IMG/VR virus record: IMGVR_UViG_3300047276_000331
Location: 1 to 25,845 of that record
Direction: 5' to 3' (one strand)
DNA length: 25,845 nucleotides
DNA from: a virus
Position 1 is the stretch's first letter. The number at the start of each line of letters is the position of its first letter. Under the pieces are notes generated by a model. It was not told where the DNA came from and did not search any database. It was given only the letters and a program-made list of their open reading frames with translations. A program made the translations under genes and the position numbers. This document shows positions 3,081 to 15,263 of this stretch, in pieces.

Positions 3081-3551
3081 CTATTCGTGATTTTTTACAA
3101 ATCCGTTGTGAAATTGTTCTTTTGCAGACAGATACGCGGCATGTGCTTCCTCTGCTGTCGGAAAAAGACCAAGGCTTTTGTTGCGCCCGTCCACAAAAAT
3201 CTGAGCGTTGTATTTGCCTGACGCGCTGTGAAAAGAAACACCAAGAAAGCCAGTCGCACCTGCGCTCTTTGTGCGGTTTTGCAGATTGTCATTGCGGCTG
3301 GCGTCACGCAAATTGCCGAAGGAATTGTTGGCCCGATCGCCATCTATGTGGTCTATTTGACCTTCTGGCCATGCTCCTGTTTTCAGAAGCCACGCGACGC
3401 GGTGGGCGTACAACTTTTTCCCTTGAACCTGTACAGTGATGTAACCTGCTTTAGTTTTGCCGGAGGCCACGCGACCTGTCTTCCTGTTGGTCAGATGGCC
3501 GGTGCGTTCGTTGTACGTGTACAAATCCACTAGCTGTTCAAAGTCACTCAT
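3081..3551 (-). CDS. HNH endonuclease with C-terminal AP2 domain (probable homing endonuclease)
   Basis: A 156-aa protein. The HNH core is visible as YAHRVAW (H50), then IDHIDGDRANN (66-76) and N80 in NLRDAS, followed by N90-x2-R. From about residue 99 to 150 there is an AP2-type DNA-binding domain (GVSFHSASGKYNAQI and GLFPTAEEAHAAY). Such HNH-AP2 genes are selfish elements in phages that nick or cut DNA and promote their own inheritance. It overlaps the stop of the primase-helicase by 8 nt and ends just before leader A, so it sits at the tail of block B. By eye it is more AT-rich than its neighbours, fitting later acquisition. GGAAGG lies upstream of the start. Confidence 0.9.
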   Translation of the reverse strand: MSDFEQLVDLYTYNERTGHLTNRKTGRVASGKTKAGYITVQVQGKKLYAHRVAWLLKTGAWPEGQIDHIDGDRANNSFGNLRDASRNDNLQNRTKSAGATGFLGVSFHSASGKYNAQIFVDGRNKSLGLFPTAEEAHAAYLSAKEQFHNGFVKNHE

Positions 3552-5589
3552 AGAAGATCACCCTTCCGCCTTCTATTTTTAGTGGACCGTCCTTTTCCTT
3601 GCTTAAGTTATTGATTGCACGTACCACAGACTGGCGGCGCGTATCGCGCTTTCCTTCCTCTGGCGCAGGCAGATCTGCCACTGCACGGTCGATCAGCTCC
3701 ATCGCGCTGACGATGCTGTCAGGGCCGAATACGGTCATGACTTCGAGGATGTGGTTTTCAACACGTCCGCGACGCTTCAGGCCCTTGCGATCTTCGTTGT
3801 CATTGGCTGGGGCAGACAGCTCACACGGAACCGCGACGCAGCTCGTGATCGGGTCACCGTCCATGTCGATGCCCAGATCGACCACTTCAAGCTTGAAGCC
3901 CCAGCGGATCCCGTCCTCGCCGTCCTTCATCTTTTCGATCACGATTTCGCGATCGCCGCTGTCATGGCGGATAACTTCGATCTGGACGTCGGCTGCGGCC
4001 TTCAGGCCTGACCAGCCACGCGAGCCTTTGCTCAGATCCTTACCGGCATGGTGGACAAGCAGGATCATTGCGCCGGTTGCTTCCTGCAGCAGGCGGATGC
4101 TGGCCAGCACGCGGCCCATGTCCTCGGACGTGTTCTCGTTCGCGCCGGGCGACACCTGCGCCAGTGTGTCGATCACGATGACTGACGCGTCGCCGATGTT
4201 CTTGATCTCGGCAATCACTTCGGAGATGTCATCGTTGTCGAGGAAGTTTGGCGCTGCGGTGATCACCTGCATGTTGCTTACGCCGCGCAGGTCGAAGCCG
4301 TGGTGCTGCGCATAGGCCTCGCCGCGCTTGCCGATGCCGCTTCCGCCTTCTGCGGAGATCGTCACGACCAGACCCTGCTTGGTGCGGCGCTCACGCCATG
4401 GTGTGCCGCGTGCGATCGCGAAGGCCAGATCCAGAGCGACAAAAGTCTTGCCGCTGCCCGACGCACCGAATAGAATGCCCAGTTGCGCTTTGGGCAGCAC
4501 GCCCTTGATCAGCCAGCTCATTGGCTCGCGCTGCGTCAGGTCGTAGATCGGCACCGGGCCGAAGCGGCCAACACTCTTCTTCGGCAGCTCAGCCATGATT
4601 GCCTCGGCCTTGGCAAGCACCTCTTCCTTGCTGGCTGCCTCACTGGGGCGGTAGCCCGCCTCGTTGGCCATCTTGATCACACTGGCCATGGTGACCTGAC
4701 GCTTACCCGGTGCAGGCTTCAGGCTCTCCCACTGATAGCGCAAGGCCTCGGTGCCGGGGTACGTGTCACCCTCTGATGACCATTCGTCCCACAGCTCGAA
4801 GCCGGTGTCGTCACCCTCTGTCTCGTGGTGCAGGGCCATGCCCACGCGCAGCCACGGCTCGCGGCCCATGCTTGGGTCGAGGTAGCTAAGGTAGTGCTCG
4901 ATCTCGCTGACGCTCAGGCCCAGCTTGGGCTCACGTCCAGCCATGAAGTCGTCCGGGTCGATGGATGGCCCGGCTGTCGCGCCGAAGCAGCTCTGGCAAA
5001 AGTCGCGGGTGTAGCTGTCAACCTCGGCGACGCGGTCCTCGTAGCCGAGCACCTCGCAGCTCGGCAGGATGTTGCCGGTGAAGGTCACAAAGCCGGTAGA
5101 GCTGAACGTCTCCGTGCCGAACTGGTCAGGCGTGGCGTGCTTCTTGTGGTTGCCGAGATCGCCCCTCAGCACGGCGCGAATGCCCTTACCGCTCGGCGAA
5201 TACTCGGCGTAGGTCCGACTGACGATCTTCTCGACTTCAGGAGGGATGTTGCCATGCACGTCGACGCAGTGGTCGAAGTCGAGGAACGTGTAGCCGCAGC
5301 CCGGCAGCGGGGCGAAGCCCACGCCATCGAAGCCCATGCGCACCGCAGCGTCACGCGCTGCCACGAAGGTGGTCAGGCGGTTGCGGTCCTGCGGCCCTCC
5401 CTGCGTGCCGTGGCGGCGGGTGCCGTCAGCCCAGTATGGTATCTTGCGCGGCTTGGCCTCGCCGACAAACTGCTCAAAGCGCCAGACCAGCCACCCCGGA
5501 ATGTCGCGCAGCGGCTCCGGCACGCGCACCGCATGAAGGGCGGGCGCGATCGCCGGAACGGCAGGTCCGATTGAACGGACGTTATCCAT
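3544..5589 (-). CDS. Primase-helicase: prim-pol-like N-terminus, PriCT domain and RepA/AAA_25 ATPase
   Basis: A 681-aa replication protein. The N-terminal part (about 30-200) resembles the bifunctional primase/polymerase fold, with the acidic FLDFDHCVD at 102-110 and SPSGKGIRAVLRG at 131-143. Residues about 224-310 match a PriCT-type linker (YLDPSMGREPWLRVGMALH). The C-terminal AAA_25/RepA-like ATPase has Walker A GASGSGKT (375-382), Walker B VIVIDTL (470-476) and LLVHHAGKD (510-518). It should make primers and unwind DNA at the phage fork. The ATG at 5589 has GAGGA 8 nt upstream and is preferred; a GTG at 5607 overlapping the methyltransferase stop is an alternative. A second, stand-alone ATPase of this class lies at 13468-14574. 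Confidence 0.9.
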   Translation of the reverse strand: MDNVRSIGPAVPAIAPALHAVRVPEPLRDIPGWLVWRFEQFVGEAKPRKIPYWADGTRRHGTQGGPQDRNRLTTFVAARDAAVRMGFDGVGFAPLPGCGYTFLDFDHCVDVHGNIPPEVEKIVSRTYAEYSPSGKGIRAVLRGDLGNHKKHATPDQFGTETFSSTGFVTFTGNILPSCEVLGYEDRVAEVDSYTRDFCQSCFGATAGPSIDPDDFMAGREPKLGLSVSEIEHYLSYLDPSMGREPWLRVGMALHHETEGDDTGFELWDEWSSEGDTYPGTEALRYQWESLKPAPGKRQVTMASVIKMANEAGYRPSEAASKEEVLAKAEAIMAELPKKSVGRFGPVPIYDLTQREPMSWLIKGVLPKAQLGILFGASGSGKTFVALDLAFAIARGTPWRERRTKQGLVVTISAEGGSGIGKRGEAYAQHHGFDLRGVSNMQVITAAPNFLDNDDISEVIAEIKNIGDASVIVIDTLAQVSPGANENTSEDMGRVLASIRLLQEATGAMILLVHHAGKDLSKGSRGWSGLKAAADVQIEVIRHDSGDREIVIEKMKDGEDGIRWGFKLEVVDLGIDMDGDPITSCVAVPCELSAPANDNEDRKGLKRRGRVENHILEVMTVFGPDSIVSAMELIDRAVADLPAPEEGKRDTRRQSVVRAINNLSKEKDGPLKIEGGRVIFYE

Positions 5590-5603
5590 ATCGTTGTCCT
5601 CTG

Positions 5604-7142
5604 TCACAGCAGCGAGATCAGGTCATCGACCATCTGGATGCGCTCGCCAATCCAGCGCATGACTGGAACGGCCATCGAATTGCCAAGCGCCTTGTAGCGC
5701 GGGCCGTCCGGGCACGCCTCTGGTCCCTTTTTCTTCCACGGGATGGCGGTGAAGTTGTCAGGAAAGCCTTGCAGCCGTTCGCACTCCACTGGTGTAAGGC
5801 GGCGGACGGTGGAGCCTATAGCTGTTTTGGTGTAATGCGCTGCGTTGTTGTTGTTGCCCCCCGGTAGCGTGTTCAAGATGCCATTTTCGCTATGCAAGGT
5901 GTCTTGCTGATGCTCGCCGTAGCGGACGGCCACGGCTAATGAAGCAACGTAGGTGGAACTTTCATGCTTATCTGCGCGGCTGGCACCAGAGCGAAGGCAA
6001 TGCGCCACGTCTGGGCTTTCCCCAACACCGAACGCCACTACGTCTGGGCCGCGATCCACACAGGGGCTACTATCGCAACGGGCGGTAAGCGTCGGCGCGG
6101 TGAACGCCACCGCTGGCATCACGCCGCCGTTCTGGTGGCTGTTGGTGGAGCCACCTGCGCGCAGCGTAGGGCTACAGTCCTCGGTGGCATCCGCGCCGTA
6201 GTCCTTGCTGCTGAAGGCGAACAGCGAGCCATTGATGTAGCGCACCTCATCGCGCGTGTTCTGCGTAAACGCCACCACATCCGGCCCGCGGTCGTGGCAC
6301 GGGCTACTATCGTACCGGCGCGTAAGCGTTCTAGCAGTCTCAGCGCCGTCAAACGTAGCGATAAAGGTGTCGGTGCCGGTGTCGAACCGCTGGCCTGTAC
6401 CCGCTGTCAAGCATTTTGCGTGCGCAGGAACGAAATTAGGGCAGCCGCCGTTGACGTGCTGGCCGAACTTGCTAGCGTCGATCCCTTGGCACTCGTATGT
6501 CTCTACAGCAGATCGCTCCCGTCCGCATCCACCACGCTCTTCAACGCCCGATGCAGCGCCTCCGGGAGCGTCTTGCCGCGCTTTGCGGCTCGGCGCAGCA
6601 TGCCCTGACATGCTGTGGCGCTCAAAAAGAACCGCTGCGGCACAGCGCCAGTCTCCAAGGTATCCGACAACGAACACACGGCGGCGTCGCTGGGCCACTC
6701 CGAAGTACTGAGCGTCAAGCACTCGGTAGGCGAGGCCATACCCGAGGTCTTCCAACGCCCCGAGGATGGAACCAAAGTCCCGTCCTCCGCTCGATGACAA
6801 GACACCGGGGACGTTTTCCCAGACGATCCAACGAGGCCGTTCGCGCTGAGCAAGTCGGCAAAACTCAAGGGCGAGGTTACCACGGTCGTCATCCAATCCA
6901 CCTCGGAGACCTGCGACACTGAAGGATTGGCAAGGGGTTCCGCCGACGAGGAGATCGATTTTTCCATACTGGTTCTGCTCAATGGTTGTGAAGTCGCCGT
7001 GCAGCGGGACTTCGGGATAGTGGTGCTCAAGCACAGCCCGGGGGAACTTCTCAATCTCAGAAAAGAAGGCAGGCTCCCAACCCATGTGATGCCAAGCGGC
7101 GGTGGCGGCCTCGATGCCGCTGCATACGGATCCGTAGCGCAC
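5604..7142 (-). CDS. dcm: DNA (cytosine-5) methyltransferase with repeat-rich target recognition region
   Basis: A 512-aa C5-MTase. Motif I is GSVCSGIEAATAAWHHMG at the N-terminus. Motif IV carries the catalytic Cys in TPCQSFS (C71), motif VI is ENVPG (109-113), motif VIII is QRRRRVF (151-157), motif IX is RRLTPVECERLQGFPDNF (447-464) and motif X lies around RYKALGNSMAVPV (482-494). It transfers a methyl group from SAM to cytosine C5, likely protecting phage DNA from host restriction. Residues about 175-445 form an unusually long target recognition region with internal repeats. The GTG start has AGGAAAG upstream. It sits between a small HTH gene (stop 2 nt upstream of its start) and the primase. 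Confidence 0.95.
   Translation of the reverse strand: MRYGSVCSGIEAATAAWHHMGWEPAFFSEIEKFPRAVLEHHYPEVPLHGDFTTIEQNQYGKIDLLVGGTPCQSFSVAGLRGGLDDDRGNLALEFCRLAQRERPRWIVWENVPGVLSSSGGRDFGSILGALEDLGYGLAYRVLDAQYFGVAQRRRRVFVVGYLGDWRCAAAVLFERHSMSGHAAPSRKARQDAPGGAASGVEERGGCGRERSAVETYECQGIDASKFGQHVNGGCPNFVPAHAKCLTAGTGQRFDTGTDTFIATFDGAETARTLTRRYDSSPCHDRGPDVVAFTQNTRDEVRYINGSLFAFSSKDYGADATEDCSPTLRAGGSTNSHQNGGVMPAVAFTAPTLTARCDSSPCVDRGPDVVAFGVGESPDVAHCLRSGASRADKHESSTYVASLAVAVRYGEHQQDTLHSENGILNTLPGGNNNNAAHYTKTAIGSTVRRLTPVECERLQGFPDNFTAIPWKKKGPEACPDGPRYKALGNSMAVPVMRWIGERIQMVDDLISLL
6031..6333. repeat. Diverged direct repeat inside the methyltransferase target recognition region
   Basis: Two copies of about 66 bp at roughly 6031-6096 and 6268-6333 are offset by 237 bp (79 codons). 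They encode near-identical peptides: TLTARCDSSPCVDRGPDVVAF and TLTRRYDSSPCHDRGPDVVAF (differing at three positions). The DNA is more diverged than the protein, so selection has kept the peptide. Between and around them are weaker units with a TL or CL core followed by a Gly/Ser/Asn-rich turn. Confidence 0.8.
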
Positions 7143-7144
7143 GT

Positions 7145-7381
7145 CTACTTTCCTGCAGGTGCGCTGAAAGCACGCACGATGTCAGGGTTCATAAGTTGGG
7201 TGCGGTCGATACCAAAGACGGCCTCGATCGCCACTGCGCGCTCAGGCGGCACCCAGCCGCGCTTGCGCCATGCGTAGATTGCTTGGTGCGTAACGCCCAT
7301 TGCCTTGGTGAAGCGGACGATGCCGCCCCCTCGCTCGATGGCGAGGTCAAGGGCGGCGATACGTTCTTCTTTCGTGCTCAT
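7145..7381 (-). CDS. YdaS/Cro-like helix-turn-helix DNA-binding protein
   Basis: A 78-aa protein. The segment AIERGGGIVRFTKAMGVTHQ followed by AIYAWRKRGWVPPERAVAIEAVFGI is typical of YdaS-type (Cro-like) proteins. The helix-turn-helix spans about residues 19-42, then comes the W-x-R-G-x-VPPERA turn. These bind operator DNA as small phage or antitoxin-like regulators. It is the fourth gene in the block started by leader B, its start overlaps the preceding stop by 4 nt (ATGA), and it lies just upstream of the methyltransferase. It is the only classical small repressor-like protein in the window, so it is a candidate reader of the leader dyads; that link is inference. Confidence 0.85.
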   Translation of the reverse strand: MSTKEERIAALDLAIERGGGIVRFTKAMGVTHQAIYAWRKRGWVPPERAVAIEAVFGIDRTQLMNPDIVRAFSAPAGK

Positions 7382-9391: not shown

Positions 9392-9633
9392 GGCTGTTCT
9401 CCAAAGACTGTGCGGGCAACGCGCATACGAATAGCATCAACCACGCCGGGTTCGGTATATCCCATCCAGTCCAACGCCTTCCGTAGCCGCTCGATCTCGC
9501 GGGCTTGGGTTTCGATTAGGTCTGCGGCTTCAAGTGGGGCTTCACTGGTGTATGATGTGTTTTTACCGGCATCCTCGTAATACCAGTGGCTCCACCGCAG
9601 CCGCTCCACCAGCGCCTTTGCTTCGTCAGTCAT
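9388..9633 (-). CDS. Small phage accessory protein with ALVERLR / EIERLRKAL motifs, 81 aa
   Basis: Starts MTDEAKALVERLRWSHWYYE at 9633 with GAGGTGGG upstream. It has the familiar arrangement of a short N-terminal helix, an EAADLIETQAREIERLRKAL coiled-coil segment, and a short C-terminal helix. Similar proteins are common in phages of Proteobacteria, always without a known role. It overlaps the repeat-protein gene by 8 nt. Confidence 0.78.
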   Translation of the reverse strand: MTDEAKALVERLRWSHWYYEDAGKNTSYTSEAPLEAADLIETQAREIERLRKALDWMGYTEPGVVDAIRMRVARTVFGEQP

Positions 9634-9931
9634 GGCCCACCTCGACAATCTGCGACCCACGGGCTGCACCGACAAGCCCTAGCGAATTGCTAACTGTGCC
9701 GTCGCCGTAGCCGTAGCCGTAGCCGTAGCCGTAGCCGTAGCCGTCGCCGTTGCCGTCGCCGTAGCCGTTGCCGTAGCCGTAGCCGTAGCCGTAGCCGTTG
9801 CCGTAGCCGTCGCCGTAGCCGTTGCCGTTGCCGTAGCCGTTGCCGTAGCCGTAGCCGTAGCCGTCGCCGTCGCCGTTGCCGTAGCCGTTGCCGTAGCCGT
9901 AGCCCACAGGCACAAAGATAGTGGGGACCAT
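9626..9931 (-). CDS. Low-complexity Gly-X repeat protein (X = Tyr, Asn or Asp)
   Basis: A 101-aa protein. After a short hydrophobic start (MVPTIFVPV) come 34 consecutive Gly-X dipeptides with X = Tyr 20 times, Asn 8 times and Asp 6 times. A 23-residue tail (TVSNSLGLVGAARGSQIVE...) follows. There is no signal peptide cleavage motif and no transmembrane segment. The ATG at 9931 overlaps the previous stop as TGATG. The composition resembles aromatic-Gly low-complexity segments that self-associate, or glycine-rich polyglycine-II-type folds; both are only possibilities. I recall Gly-X ORFs of this sort in other phages, sometimes beside a protein like the next one upstream. Function unknown. Confidence 0.75.
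   Translation of the reverse strand: MVPTIFVPVGYGYGNGYGNGDGDGYGYGYGNGYGNGNGYGDGYGNGYGYGYGYGNGYGDGNGDGYGYGYGYGYGYGDGTVSNSLGLVGAARGSQIVEVGHD
9698..9901. repeat. Hexanucleotide repeat, 34 units of GCCGTN (plus strand)
   Basis: Thirty-four perfect 6-bp units with no indels. The first five bases never change. The sixth is A (20), T (8) or C (6), never G. In the minus-strand gene this base is the first position of the X codon, giving TAC, AAC or GAC. Confidence 0.97.
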
Positions 9932-10233
9932 CACAGACCCCACTTGTCGTCTACCGGGACACAGAACACTTCTGCACCTACTGGCATATCAACGTCAGCG
10001 ATTTTGCGCAGGTCGGCCTTCGCCTTCTTCGGGTCAGCAATCATGCCCGCGAAGCCGATACTCTCCCACTTGAATACGTGCAGTGCGTTCGACAGGCGGA
10101 TGCGCCCATTCTCGCGGGTCACGTCACCAGCGAAAATCCAGCCACGATCCACCACGACAACGGCGCGGGTTCCTGTCGGGCGGTTAGCGATAGGCGCGTA
10201 ATCAACGCCGTTGATGGTCACAATGTCAGTCAT
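9931..10233 (-). CDS. Conserved phage protein of unknown function (DUF6948-like)
   Basis: A 100-aa protein with a compact beta-rich N-terminal half: INGVDYAPI, then RAVVVVDRGWIFAGDVT, then RIRLSNALHVFKWESIGFAG. A C-terminal strand/turn (EVFCVPVDDKWGL) follows. I recognise the 'VVVDRGWIFAGDV...W(E)SIGF' pattern from small phage proteins which I believe are filed as DUF6948; treat the number as unchecked. AAGGAG upstream. It immediately precedes the Gly-X repeat gene with a 1-nt overlap, so the two are likely made together. Confidence 0.72.
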   Translation of the reverse strand: MTDIVTINGVDYAPIANRPTGTRAVVVVDRGWIFAGDVTRENGRIRLSNALHVFKWESIGFAGMIADPKKAKADLRKIADVDMPVGAEVFCVPVDDKWGL

Positions 10234-11905: not shown

Positions 11906-12196
11906 TCAGTCCTCCTTCGTCCAGTCGTACGCGATCAGGGCGTCGACCTTGGCCTTGTACGCCTTGTCCTTAGCCATCAGCTCGCGCGCCTGATGCAGGC
12001 CATTGCGGATGGTGGTGTGGTCTCGCTTCAGCCAGCGCCCCACTTGGCTCAGACTGTTGCCGCGCTCGTGCAGGGCCGCGTAGACGGCGAAGCGTGCGGG
12101 CAGGATGTAGCGGTTCTTGTACTTGCCTGCGATCTCATGGGGCAGGATCTTGAAGACCCGCGCAGCCTCCTTGATGACTTCTGTGTAGCTGCTCAC
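11906..12196 (-). CDS. Stand-alone DnaA domain IV-like DNA-binding protein
   Basis: A 96-aa protein with a GTG start (GAGGAG upstream). Residues about 12-72 match the C-terminal DNA-binding domain of DnaA: ARFAVYAALHERGNSLSQVG followed by the signature W-L-K-RDHTTI (RDHTTI at 58-63) and NGLHQAREL. It lacks the AAA+ and N-terminal domains of true DnaA. It probably binds DnaA-box-like sites as a regulator of phage transcription or replication, or competes with host DnaA at the host origin; both are inference. It is the second gene after leader C, 2 nt from its neighbour. I found no convincing DnaA box cluster in the window. Confidence 0.88.
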   Translation of the reverse strand: MSSYTEVIKEAARVFKILPHEIAGKYKNRYILPARFAVYAALHERGNSLSQVGRWLKRDHTTIRNGLHQARELMAKDKAYKAKVDALIAYDWTKED

Positions 12197-12198
12197 GC

Positions 12199-12453
12199 TT
12201 AATGCTCCTCGTAGTAGGCGCGGTCGCCCAGAACCTTCTTAAGGTGGTCGAGGACGTACTCTGCCTGATCGACCCACTCGGACACCGAGTAGGCATTGGC
12301 GTAGGGGACGTAGATCGACACCGTTTCGTAGATGTTGTCTGCCGGTACGTCGTAGATGAAGTAATGGTAGCCGTCGCCACGCACCAGCTCCAGCGGGATG
12401 CGCGCTTCGTTGATTGCGCGCTGGGCCTGCTTGATGGTGGTTTTGTTGGTCAT
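12199..12453 (-). CDS. Hypothetical protein, 84 aa; first gene after leader C
   Basis: Starts MTNKTTIKQAQRAINEARIP directly after leader C (GGAGTACCTGAT then ATG). Has a beta-rich middle (DGYHYFIYDVPADNIYETVS) and a helical end (EYVLDHLKKVLGDRAYYEE). The same frame is open for another 131 codons upstream through the leader, so a longer form is also possible (see the entry 12199-12846). Leader conservation makes 12453 the best-supported start. Function unknown. Confidence 0.75.
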   Translation of the reverse strand: MTNKTTIKQAQRAINEARIPLELVRGDGYHYFIYDVPADNIYETVSIYVPYANAYSVSEWVDQAEYVLDHLKKVLGDRAYYEEH

Positions 12454-12846
12454 ATCAGGTACTCCGTATGCGTTGCTGATGACGCCTTCTCGCATATGCA
12501 ACGCAGCATTGCAATACCCTATTTCTTCCGTTCGTCCATCATAGCGTCGGCGTACAGTTCTTGTTGGGTCATGTTCTTGCTCTCCTTGCATCTGGCGGTG
12601 GAGGGCGAGGGCCTCCTTGGTCAGGTCGTCGTGCAGGGTGCGCAGCGCGCCCAGCCTGCGGAAGTGGACGGCACGGTCGTGCTCAAGGCGATCAGTGTCG
12701 CCGGGGTAGTCCCTGCCGTTGGGCGCGATGCGCTGCAGCTCGAAGATCAGGTTCTCAAGCAGGACGCGTGCGTTCATGCGGTGGTCGATCAGATCGCTGC
12801 CGGGCGTGCCGTTGATGTTGAGCACTGGATTGACAAGGTCGTTCAT
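12199..12846 (-). CDS. Small phage protein (N-terminal part) open in frame through leader C into the downstream gene
   Basis: The ATG at 12846 (GAGGAGGA upstream) starts MNDLVNPVLNINGTPGSDLI. Over about 85 residues it follows a common small phage protein ('INGT...DLI...L...LQRIAPNGRDY...LEHDRAVHFRRLGALRTLHDDLTKEALAL'). Such proteins normally stop about there. Here no stop occurs: the frame runs through 45 residues of leader-like sequence and into the 84-aa gene, giving 215 aa in all. Either a fusion protein is made alongside the short form, or a stop has been lost. A 17-aa frame with strong AAGGAG begins exactly where the stop would be expected. Confidence 0.55.
   Translation of the reverse strand: MNDLVNPVLNINGTPGSDLIDHRMNARVLLENLIFELQRIAPNGRDYPGDTDRLEHDRAVHFRRLGALRTLHDDLTKEALALHRQMQGEQEHDPTRTVRRRYDGRTEEIGYCNAALHMREGVISNAYGVPDMTNKTTIKQAQRAINEARIPLELVRGDGYHYFIYDVPADNIYETVSIYVPYANAYSVSEWVDQAEYVLDHLKKVLGDRAYYEEH
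12454..12515 (-). promoter_or_regulatory. Leader C: dyad operator and conserved 5' leader
   Basis: The dyad at 12496-12514 reads ATGCAAC-GCAGC-ATTGCAA. On the minus strand ATCAGCAACGCATACGGAGT begins 34 nt after the start of TTGCAA, nearly identical to leader A over the same stretch. No clear -10 hexamer. It would control the longest early block (DnaA-domain protein through 8171). Unusually, the whole leader is inside an open reading frame. Confidence 0.65.
12519..12572 (-). CDS. Possible 17-aa leader peptide ahead of leader C
   Basis: A tiny frame, MTQQELYADAMMDERKK, with an excellent AAGGAG 8 nt upstream. Its TAG stop ends just 5 nt before the dyad of leader C. It lies in a different frame from the long ORF that spans the region. 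Its translation could influence read-through into the next block or end the upstream operon. It may be chance; size gives little statistical support. Confidence 0.35.
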   Translation of the reverse strand: MTQQELYADAMMDERKK

Positions 12847-13105: not shown

Positions 13106-13261
13106 TCAGGCCTCCCTCGCGGTCGAGAAGAACGGGGTGTGCGCCTTGCAGTTGGCGGCCAGCGCGTGGGCCTGCGCCTCTGCTTCGGTGGTGAAGGTGC
13201 GGTCGAGGTGGGCGACGTGCTCGCCGGTGTCGATGCGGTAGGTGCGGACGATGTAGGTCAT
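13106..13261 (-). CDS. Small hypothetical protein, 51 aa; first gene after leader D
   Basis: Starts MTYIVRTYRIDTGEHVAHLD at 13261, placed by leader D (GGAGTAACTGAC then ATG). A further upstream start at 13348 lies beyond the dyad and is rejected. It consists of two strands and a helix (TFTTEAEAQAHALAANCKAH). Function unknown. Confidence 0.75.
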   Translation of the reverse strand: MTYIVRTYRIDTGEHVAHLDRTFTTEAEAQAHALAANCKAHTPFFSTAREA

Positions 13262-13325
13262 GTCAGTTACTCCGTAAGTGCGTTGTTGATGACCTCTACA
13301 TAGCATTGCAATCAGGCATTGCAAC
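13262..13325 (-). promoter_or_regulatory. Leader D: dyad operator, promoter candidate and conserved 5' leader
   Basis: The dyad at 13306-13324 is the most symmetrical of the four: TTGCAAT-CAGGC-ATTGCAA with perfect 7-bp arms. On the minus strand TTGCAA is followed after 16 nt by TATGTA (-10-like), and ATCAACAACG starts 34 nt after TTGCAA. GGAGTAACTGAC then precedes the ATG at 13261. It lies in the divergent region shared with the rightward ATPase gene. Confidence 0.7.
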
Positions 13326-13412
13326 CCCCTAAATGCAAAAAAGCGCATGTGGTGTGGGGAAAGACAGACAAGGCATTTCTGACAACCCCTGATGTCTATC
13401 CAAACCTGCTAC

Positions 13413-13450
13413 TTGCGGTGGACAGACACTTCCTATATAGGCTGTCTGTC
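13413..13450 (+). promoter_or_regulatory. Rightward promoter candidate with flanking inverted repeat
   Basis: TTGCGG (13413-13418), 17 nt, TATAGG (13436-13441) make a sigma70-like promoter for the ATPase gene. The -10 lies in a CCTATATAGG palindrome and between inverted arms GACAGAC (13421-13427) and GTCTGTC (13444-13450). An additional GACAGAC is at 13363. The arrangement suggests an operator over the promoter; inferred. Confidence 0.5.
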
Positions 13451-13467
13451 AAATGAGGAGAATTGGC

Positions 13468-14574
13468 ATGTGGACAGGTAGTAAGGTTTGGCTCAACCCC
13501 GCAGAAGTGCTGGCCTCGGCGCATGAGAGGTACGACATCGTGGAGGGTTTGATCCCGGATCGCGGCGTGACGTGGATGTACGGCGCTTCGATGAGTTTCA
13601 AGACATTCGTGGCGATGTCAATCGCGGCTGCGGCGTCTACTGGCTCGGACTGGATGGGCCGCAAGACTGAGCAATGTATGGTGGTGTATGTTGGAGCGGA
13701 AGGTGGCATGTCGCTGCACGCGCGACGTGCGGGGGCTGAAATGACTGCAGGCAAGGCGGGCGCGCTGTGTGTTGCGACCGAGCGGCCTATGCTCGACACA
13801 CGTCTGGGGCAGATACGTCTGAGGGGCATCCTTCAGGGCCTTGTGGGTAACATTTTCGGGGATGCTGAGTACGGCGATGTGGAGGAGGACGCCGTGTTCA
13901 CAGGCGCCTTCTCGGCTTACACGCCAGACGATAGCTTCGATGACGGCGGGGCGCAGGCGGTACTGGTGGTTGTCGATACTTACTCACAGACGTCCGGGGG
14001 CGACGACAAGGCCAATGTCAGCGCGTACATCAAAGGGCTTAGAGACATGATCGAGGACGCGCAAGCGAGCAGCGACTGGCGCTTGTCTTTTCTGGTTGTG
14101 GACCACGCCACGAAGGCGGGAGGGAGCTACATGGGCAGCGTTGCCAAACTAAACGATGTGGACAGCCAGATTGAGGTGGTCCGCAATGCTTCAACGAACC
14201 GTGCCACGGTTTATCACCGCAAAGTGAAGGACGGGATCGAGAGCGAGCCGCTCACGATTGAGCTGACCCCAAAGGTGCTGGGTGATTACGTTGACGCGTA
14301 CGGCAAGCCTATCACTACGCTGGTCGCCAAGGACGGGACCAAGGCCGCGAAGATCGCTGAGCTGGCGGAGGGCAAGGCTGGTGTGCTTTTGACCCTACTG
14401 GAGGATGAGGGCGGTCGCTGTGAAGACGAGACGCTCCGCAAGATGTTCGCGGCGCACAATTCGAATGAGGGCATAAAGCCAGAGAGCGTAGCGCGGGCGT
14501 ACAAGCGGGCGAAAGAAAACTTACAGGAGGCTGCGGTCATCGCGGTGGAGGGAGACACGCTCCTCGCGCTGTAG
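13468..14574 (+). CDS. RepA-type (AAA_25-like) ATPase, stand-alone
   Basis: A 368-aa P-loop ATPase. Start at 13468 is set by AGGAG 7 nt upstream; an ATG at 13453 overlaps that site. The Walker A is atypical, GASMSFKT (39-46), with Phe where Gly normally precedes Lys; SFKS/SFKT loops do occur in phage RepA-like proteins. Walker B is AVLVVVDTYSQ (from 164), followed by VVDHATKAG (210-218), parallel to VHHAGKD of the primase-helicase. The C-terminal 80 residues look like a winged-helix region. It has no primase domain. It is the only early-type gene pointing right and is flanked by GGACA/TGTCTGTC repeats. Likely a helicase loader, replication initiator or DNA-remodelling ATPase; the exact role is unknown. 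Confidence 0.85.
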   Translation: MWTGSKVWLNPAEVLASAHERYDIVEGLIPDRGVTWMYGASMSFKTFVAMSIAAAASTGSDWMGRKTEQCMVVYVGAEGGMSLHARRAGAEMTAGKAGALCVATERPMLDTRLGQIRLRGILQGLVGNIFGDAEYGDVEEDAVFTGAFSAYTPDDSFDDGGAQAVLVVVDTYSQTSGGDDKANVSAYIKGLRDMIEDAQASSDWRLSFLVVDHATKAGGSYMGSVAKLNDVDSQIEVVRNASTNRATVYHRKVKDGIESEPLTIELTPKVLGDYVDAYGKPITTLVAKDGTKAAKIAELAEGKAGVLLTLLEDEGGRCEDETLRKMFAAHNSNEGIKPESVARAYKRAKENLQEAAVIAVEGDTLLAL

Positions 14575-14576
14575 TC

Positions 14577-14643
14577 GGACAAGGACATGGACACCACCCC
14601 CCTCCCCCTAAAGGGGAGGGGTGGTTGTCTGTCCGGCTGTCTG
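14577..14643. other. GGACA repeats and large GC-rich hairpin after the ATPase gene
   Basis: Right after the stop, GGACA occurs three times at 6-nt spacing (14577-14592). Then CCACCCC...TCCCC pairs with GGGGAGGGGTGG around a short AU loop (about 14594-14623) with a two-C bulge. TGTCTGTCC follows at 14626-14634 and a TGTCTGG further on. No U-tract follows, so it is not a standard intrinsic terminator; it may block transcription by structure or be a protein-binding site. Confidence 0.6.
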
Positions 14644-14711
14644 GTCGGTATCAGGAGGTATTTGTAAAAAATTGCAAGTTGCTTGTTGGAACCCCCTCGA
14701 ACCGGATGCCC

Positions 14712-14768
14712 TTGCGCTTCGCCCCGATCGAGCGTATCTTGTCTCGTGACACTGGAAGCCCTGTCACG
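14712..14768 (+). promoter_or_regulatory. Candidate late promoter plus 7-bp inverted repeat
   Basis: TTGCGC (14712-14717), 17 nt, TATCTT (14735-14740) is a plausible sigma70-type promoter for the packaging and head genes. Overlapping the expected start is CGTGACA (14745-14751), 10 nt, TGTCACG (14762-14768), a perfect inverted repeat that could be an operator or a 5' hairpin. The small terminase begins 19 nt further on. Confidence 0.5.
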
Positions 14769-14786
14769 TTTACGGAGCAAGCAGCC

Positions 14787-15263
14787 ATGGCCCGAAGGGC
14801 TACGAAGAGAACCCCAGAGATCATCGAAGAGATCATCGACGGCGTTGCCAACGGCGTGCCTCTGCGCGAGGTGTGCAGGCGTGATGGCATGCCGAATTGG
14901 CGCACTGTGTATGATTGGTTGGAGGCCGACGAGGAGTTCGCTGCACGGTTCGCGCGTGCGCGCGACATTGGCTTCGACGCCATCGCCGAGGACATTTTGC
15001 AAAATGTCGACAGCGTGCCTGCGCAGGGCGAATACATCCAGCGCAGCAAGTTGCAGGTCGAGACACGCTTGAAGCTCCTCGCCAAGTGGTCGCCGAAGAA
15101 GTACGGCGACAAGCAGACGGTCGACGTCGGCAACAAAGAGGGCGAGACGCTCAAGGTCGACAGCAACGTCGACAAGGTCGCCCTGACGCTGGCCCTCGCC
15201 AAGGCCATACGCGGCGAGGAGGTCGAGCTGCCTCCGATCGACGACGCAAAGGACATCCTGTGA
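14787..15263 (+). CDS. terS: Terminase small subunit
   Basis: A 158-aa protein starting MARRATKRTPEIIEEIIDGV (GGAG upstream). The N-terminal helix-turn-helix is visible as GVPLREVCRRDGMPNWRTVY followed by DWLEADEEFAARFARAR, the typical terminase small subunit DNA-binding module ('SL..iCr..gmP...tvy.Wl'). The centre (QRSKLQVETRLKLLAKWSPKKYGDK) is the usual oligomerisation/second segment. It recognises the phage packaging site and hands DNA to the large subunit. Earlier possible starts in the same frame lack a good ribosome site. First gene of the late operon. Confidence 0.9.
   Translation: MARRATKRTPEIIEEIIDGVANGVPLREVCRRDGMPNWRTVYDWLEADEEFAARFARARDIGFDAIAEDILQNVDSVPAQGEYIQRSKLQVETRLKLLAKWSPKKYGDKQTVDVGNKEGETLKVDSNVDKVALTLALAKAIRGEEVELPPIDDAKDIL

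Follow-up and report, generated by a model that had tools for sequence, protein, structure and literature searches.

The window, as we call the whole 25,845-base virus record analysed here, is a genome fragment, and its region from about 13357 to 14706 is best read, at a probability that we put at about 0.55, as an acquired replication-initiator cassette that occupies a resident origin-like slot and is probably regulated by its own product. The cassette consists of one gene, encoding a stand-alone RepA-type ATPase, and of GACA-containing words on both sides of it (Table 1). The exchange of the slot content, the foreign codon usage, the RepA-type core, the GACA enrichment and the recurrence of the layout all emerge from comparison with other sequences.

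The slot lies where the two transcription directions of the fragment part. Leftward genes start at about 13261, terS opens the rightward structural genes at 14787, and the ATPase gene is the single rightward gene between the leftward early genes and terS. By its structural genes and primase-helicase (HEL), the window is a relative of Caulobacter phage RW. Relatives were collected by terS and terL, and the closest of them, L010 (TerL 95%, portal 96%) and L090 (TerL 85%), keep both flanks and miss the ATPase gene and the GACA words alike, the DNA between the shared flanks being unrelated to that of the window. In blastn comparisons, the left-flank homology stops at 13337 (versus L010) or 13356 (versus L090), and the right-flank homology resumes at 14707 and 14726, respectively. 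The codon fit of the ATPase gene is 0.061 versus 0.19-0.40 for most other window genes, which marks it as foreign to the core genome. The preliminary description had raised the possibility of an acquired cassette with the repeats as its ends; the joint absence of gene and words from relatives and the foreign codon usage bear out the cassette, whereas the words lie inside the homology boundaries, with no recombinase seen, and do not qualify as its ends.

Table 1 Positions of the cassette, its flanks and other relevant features in the window
Feature	Position	Strand	Content or basis
Resident primase-helicase HEL	3544..5607	-	PriCT_2, AAA_25 and C-terminal domain with helix KRDTRRQSVVRAINNLSKE
Stand-alone DnaA domain IV-like protein	11906-12196	-	PF08299 above cut-off
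Left flank, common to relatives	13253..13356	-	Leader and promoter-like element GCAATCAGGCATTGC of the leftward operon; blastn
Upstream GACA word set	13363..13450	.	GACAGACA at 13363-13370 and 13421-13428, TGTCTGTC at 13443-13450; lesser GACA/TGTC between
Weak promoter-like element	13413..13439	+	TTGCGG at 13413, 15-nt spacer, TATATA at 13434; inferred from reading the sequence
Stand-alone RepA-type (AAA_25) ATPase, 368 aa	13468..14574	+	Pfam PF13481, E 1.3e-16; alignment; RecA-like fold
Predicted C-terminal winged helix, aa 303-367	14374..14568	+	AlphaFold2, pLDDT mostly 84-95
Downstream array	14577..14644	.	GGACA x3, CCACCCCCCTCCCC-loop-GGGGAGGGGTGG palindrome, TGTCTGTCC at 14626-14634, TGTCTGG at 14638-14644
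Right flank, common to relatives, with small terminase gene terS (14787-15263)	14707..15263	+	

Several observations concern the surroundings of the slot. The terS gene is apparently mosaic, its first part being almost identical to L010 and its second part nearest to L028-type phages (80% DNA identity, 14958-15164). A leader with a promoter-like GCAAT-n5-ATTGC is repeated at 12445-12524 and 13253-13337, before leftward genes, and resembling leaders precede many leftward genes in the relatives. Elsewhere in the window, a strong tandem repeat (CCGTAGCC, a GYGNGYG protein repeat) lies inside the gene 9626-9943 (-). In Caulobacter phage RW (L153:2720-3218), a 2,940-base direct terminal repeat ends within the slot-equivalent intergenic region, so that the array region may have a connection with packaging. 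An Rfam scan of 13200-14800 returned no match, and GC skew was uninformative as an origin mark, the T-A skew merely tracking gene direction.

In most relatives, the slot DNA is dense in a short word found in both orientations, which varies by lineage and is often TGCANCA; among the words encountered are TGCAACACG, TGCAGCACG, TGCAGCAT, TGCACCA, TGCAACAA and ACGTGACAC. In long contigs, these words are nearly confined to the slot (7/7 in G014, 5/5 in G029 and 6/7 in G005), and the arrays surround a central hairpin, for instance at L010:1146-1506, L012:5528-5900 and L090:6560-6870 (the slots of L010-L152 lie upstream of terS). At homologous positions the words switch in concert while the intervening sequence stays alike, as seen for L010 versus L012/L029/L039 and for L090 versus L140/L018. 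Since the spacers are stable and the word change is concerted, the slot behaves like a group of sites recognised by a reader of changing specificity. TGCANCA is absent from the slot of the window, and the whole fragment contains no TGCAACA; as the TGCANCA array is also missing from the slot in the RW-group contigs G023 and G027, this absence is not unique to the window. No clear GACA excess was found in the RW-group slots. Some relatives have a slot gene whose product terminates in a duplicate of the C-terminal domain of HEL (hhalign 99.8%). Genes in the slots of L016, L017, L025, L090, L096, L097, L104, L126, L129, L131 and L142 are exchangeable and encode the HEL-type C-terminal domain, either by itself or joined to small domains of zinc-ribbon-like, AP2-like or other kinds, and in L017 the helix of the slot protein almost equals that of L017's own HEL.

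As for the reader of the resident words, the C-terminal domain of HEL, a protein that matches RSF1010 RepA by sequence (E 1.2e-5), fits this role as a strong lead rather than as proof. The domain had initially been dropped, because its helix seemed constant despite different words, and was reinstated upon a covariation between a helix residue and base 5 of TGCANCA (T going with A or C, and I with G), which was spotted post hoc among contigs that are partly related and not independent. The helix RDIRRQ occurs in eight contigs with TGCAGCA words and RDTRRQ in five with TGCANCA words that are mainly TGCAACA or TGCACCA, two of these five (G004, G018) having few words; G031 and G030 have quite different words and different HEL helices. 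This covariation supports C-terminal domains as word readers. TerS was rejected for this role, since its first 58 residues, up to the helix region, are identical between the window and L010 (58/58) and the words differ. A small YdaS/Cro-like HTH protein (7145-7381, -), present in 16/16 related contigs compared, is disfavoured, as the window and G013 combine an identical helix with different words, and the DnaA domain IV-like protein, encoded in just 6/20 related records, was set aside as a general reader. A scan for a gene whose presence tracks the word gave nothing clear.

Around the ATPase gene, the repeats were found exactly where the preliminary description had placed them, with GACAGAC at 13363 and 13421, GTCTGTC at 13444 and 14627, and GGACA at 14577, 14583 and 14589. 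The corresponding 8-mers, GACAGACA (13363, 13421) and TGTCTGTC (13443, 14626), have only four copies in the 25,845 bases, all of them around this gene. None of 400 Markov simulations reached the top 8-mer score of the 1.5-kb slot; outside the slot, a small number of repeats in coding or leader sequence of the window score equally or higher, so that the word count by itself is only moderately special. Counting the GACA core, as defined from other phages, gave eight occurrences upstream of the gene versus 1.14 expected (Poisson P 2.5e-5) and six downstream versus 0.85 expected (P 2.6e-4), the density within the gene being that of the background. The word copies are few compared with the 7-15 of intact arrays. 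The downstream array begins 2 nt past the stop codon, and its GGACA triplet and the GTCTGTC at 14627, described earlier as separate sites, are instead the two arms of one hairpin (14577-14644), in which the triplet pairs with TGTCTGTCC...TGTCTGG across CCACCCCCCTCCCC-CTAAA-GGGGAGGGGTGG. For 14560-14680, the fold amounts to -57.8 kcal/mol, with a z of -5.3.

This arrangement recurs beyond the relatives of the window. A pattern search for the inverted pair of GACAGACA led to several unrelated phages in which the pair is found a short way downstream of a gene for a RepA-type helicase. These loci were selected by the word, and two further sets were collected without using words. In the first, the strongest repeat of the locus lies directly 3' of the RepA-type gene in 9/16 loci, including the isolates Rhizobium phage 16-3 (GCGTGACA, 13 copies), Roseobacter phage CRP-823 (ACTACAAA, 10 copies), Idiomarinaceae phage 1N2-2 (TGTACCG, eight copies) and Alteromonas phage PB15 (TGAACCA, eight copies). 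In the second, found by the RepA protein alone, the strongest repeat directly follows the gene in 23/43 loci, and 20 of these 23 top words contain GACA; at the other 20/43 loci, no array ranked first at the 3' end of the gene. GACA/TGTC was counted 303 times in the 300 nt after the stop versus 101.7 expected. One anatomy is common to L300, L312, L314, L321, L327 and the window: direct GACA words run from the stop codon, followed by a palindrome (for example acacccttaagggTGTC) and by words in inverted orientation. The origin suggested in the preliminary description is hence retained in part, as a putative origin-type iteron module that is backed by this layout after RepA-type helicase genes in unrelated phages and by the type of the C-terminal domain. 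The word arrays after RepA-type genes in L279-L286 and L287-L341 are candidate replication origins; a literature search, which was not exhaustive, found no paper that describes such arrays as a general feature of AAA_25 RepA phages.

That the window encodes a second RepA-type ATPase besides HEL was confirmed by Pfam (PF13481, E 1.3e-16), HEL also containing an AAA_25 domain. Its Walker A motif is GASMSFKT (13582-13605), the Walker A lysine (K45) and D170-T171 of Walker B are invariant in an alignment of 21 sequences, and the histidine and KDG motifs are retained. The phenylalanine in Walker A had been pointed out as an oddity, which it is not, as relatives have GPGGSFKS and GxPGSYKS. The deviating position is the column of the RG-motif arginine, which holds Met222 (14131-14133) in the window ATPase and arginine in the other 20 of the 21 aligned sequences; by analogy with RSF1010 RepA, we take this arginine to be the likely arginine finger. 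AAA_25 was the only domain found in the 368 aa, a primase domain being absent. Since the RG arginine is lost and there is no primase, the protein is perhaps not a helicase but an initiator or regulator, more likely starting or controlling replication than driving forks. Matches of the whole model by fold were RecA/Rad51 proteins, with no sequence match in the PDB, and no close homologue of the whole protein or of the cassette was found in phages, plasmids, viral contigs or genomes. A profile built from the C-termini of GACA-array RepA proteins, selected according to their array rank and word, placed the ATPase first among 354 window frames (E 3.6e-4, versus 0.18 for the next), with no match to the HEL C-terminus, and comparison gave no support to the ATPase C-terminus being a copy of that of HEL. 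The profile-profile value against a larger GACA set was modest (27%). Thus, the C-terminal tie of the ATPase to the GACA-array RepA proteins is supportive, not conclusive.

The most likely start codon of the protein is ATG 13468, behind GAGGAG at 13455, rather than a start at 13453. The gene had been credited with a rightward promoter of its own between the two arms of the repeat; only the -10 element of the promoter-like sequence lies between the arms, and this putative promoter is weak, the scanner having found none. The inverted pair at 13421-13450 spans 30 bp with a 14-nt centre, its left arm falling within the promoter spacer and its right arm after the -10, at the expected start site. 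This position of the pair across the -10 makes autoregulation plausible.

Under the reading as an acquired initiator, a slot that in relatives usually holds a word array matching their own primase-helicase would have been entered by a RepA-type ATPase together with its GACA word set, which replaced or displaced the TGCANCA array expected from the HEL helix. The C-terminal domain of the ATPase would bind the GACA words; at 13421-13450, binding would repress the promoter of the gene itself, and at 14577-14644, perhaps also at 13363-13450, the ATPase would nucleate an initiation complex at the palindrome. The resident HEL would then be recruited to this complex and left to drive the fork. DNA binding by this protein, autoregulation, origin activity and the hand-over to HEL are inferred. 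In a bolder form, which we regard as tentative and on the improbable side, the phage would have undergone an origin swap, having lost the array that matches its own HEL (helix RDTRRQS) and starting from a foreign GACA-iteron initiator that is unable to unwind alone and loads HEL; more generally, the lineage-specific iteron words of RepA-type phages would be predictable from the C-terminal recognition helix.

The main rival to the initiator reading makes the ATPase a regulator. It would bind the GACA words of its own promoter, and its effect on HEL, or on a competing element that uses such words, would be that of a dominant-negative or copy-control partner, as with Cnr and the P4 alpha protein. 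Its loss of the RG arginine, alone among 21, its lack of a primase and the inverted pair over the -10 would all suit such a role, and small slot proteins in L090 and L097, consisting mainly of the HEL-type C-terminal domain, resemble partners of this kind. However, Walker A and B are retained, and the downstream array of words and palindrome is the one that follows full RepA helicase genes, which a pure autoregulator would not need, so that we consider this role somewhat unlikely. The lost arginine and the foreign codon usage, together with the low number of word copies against intact arrays, might also indicate a decaying remnant of an acquired replication module that no longer has a function; with a frame still open over 368 codons, intact Walker motifs and ribosome-binding site, a confidently predicted winged helix and words that are still exact, decay seems unlikely.

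Two further explanations deal with the repeats rather than with the protein. The repeats could serve transcription alone, as a promoter operator and as a terminator hairpin downstream of the gene, given that the inverted pair overlaps the -10 and that a strong GC-rich hairpin lies past the stop. Yet no T run follows the hairpin, the terminator scan found none, one and the same GACA word occurs on both sides of the gene, and RepA loci with many direct words share the layout, which makes a purely transcriptional function quite unlikely. The repeats could also mark the termini of a mobile element that brought in the ATPase gene, in line with their flanking a sporadic gene on both sides; this is very improbable, as even the outermost words are located within the interval between the ends of homology (13356, 14707), the insert has the ATPase as its only large gene and none for a transposase or nuclease, and an iteron role explains the words sufficiently.

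Known systems offer partial parallels to the initiator reading. SaPI Rep and SCCmec Cch2 recognise, by their C-terminal domains, iterons directly downstream of their own genes (PMC7581432). As in these mobile elements, the helicase-type ATPase gene of the window is followed at once by short repeats and inverted repeats, and where their reader is a C-terminal DNA-binding domain, the window ATPase has its predicted winged helix. However, SaPI Rep and Cch2 are helicase-active initiator helicases of another type (PMC7581432), whereas the window motor is RecA-like (AAA_25) without the RG arginine, and unlike them the window phage already owns a primase-helicase. The motor domain of their family is absent from the window ATPase, in which only AAA_25 was matched and the fold is that of RecA/Rad51. 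In phage P4, a C-terminal winged helix of the alpha protein binds the ori/crr repeats at the origin, with Cnr as a regulator (PMC4234260); Cnr, a small winged-helix partner, is a possible parallel to the slot proteins of the relatives, but alpha carries a TOPRIM-type primase in the same chain and the window ATPase has no primase domain. Plasmid pRN1 (ORF904) and phage BIP-1 have an origin-like stem-loop downstream of the replication-protein gene and a C-terminal winged helix (PMC4234260), features that the window shares, the winged helix as a prediction; their motor, in contrast, is a superfamily-3 helicase with an archaeo-eukaryotic primase, and pRN1 is without iterons. RSF1010 RepA (PDB 1g8y, 1nlf, 1olo) has a RepA-type ring ATPase core likewise, but in RSF1010 a separate RepC binds the iterons, whereas the window ATPase carries its own predicted winged helix. 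The window cassette is therefore not a member of the SaPI Rep/Cch2 family by its motor type, nor of the P4 alpha or pRN1 types by its domain content.

Few environmental phages have a known replication origin, and the DNA next to RepA-type genes carries lineage-specific word arrays across unrelated phages. If confirmed, such arrays, together with the covariation between one helix residue and one word base in one group, would provide a computable, testable rule for locating the origins of phages and the proteins that read them. From the window it seems that an initiator and its origin are exchangeable as a unit into a resident origin-like slot, and phages may thus be able to swap a replication start along with its reader protein.
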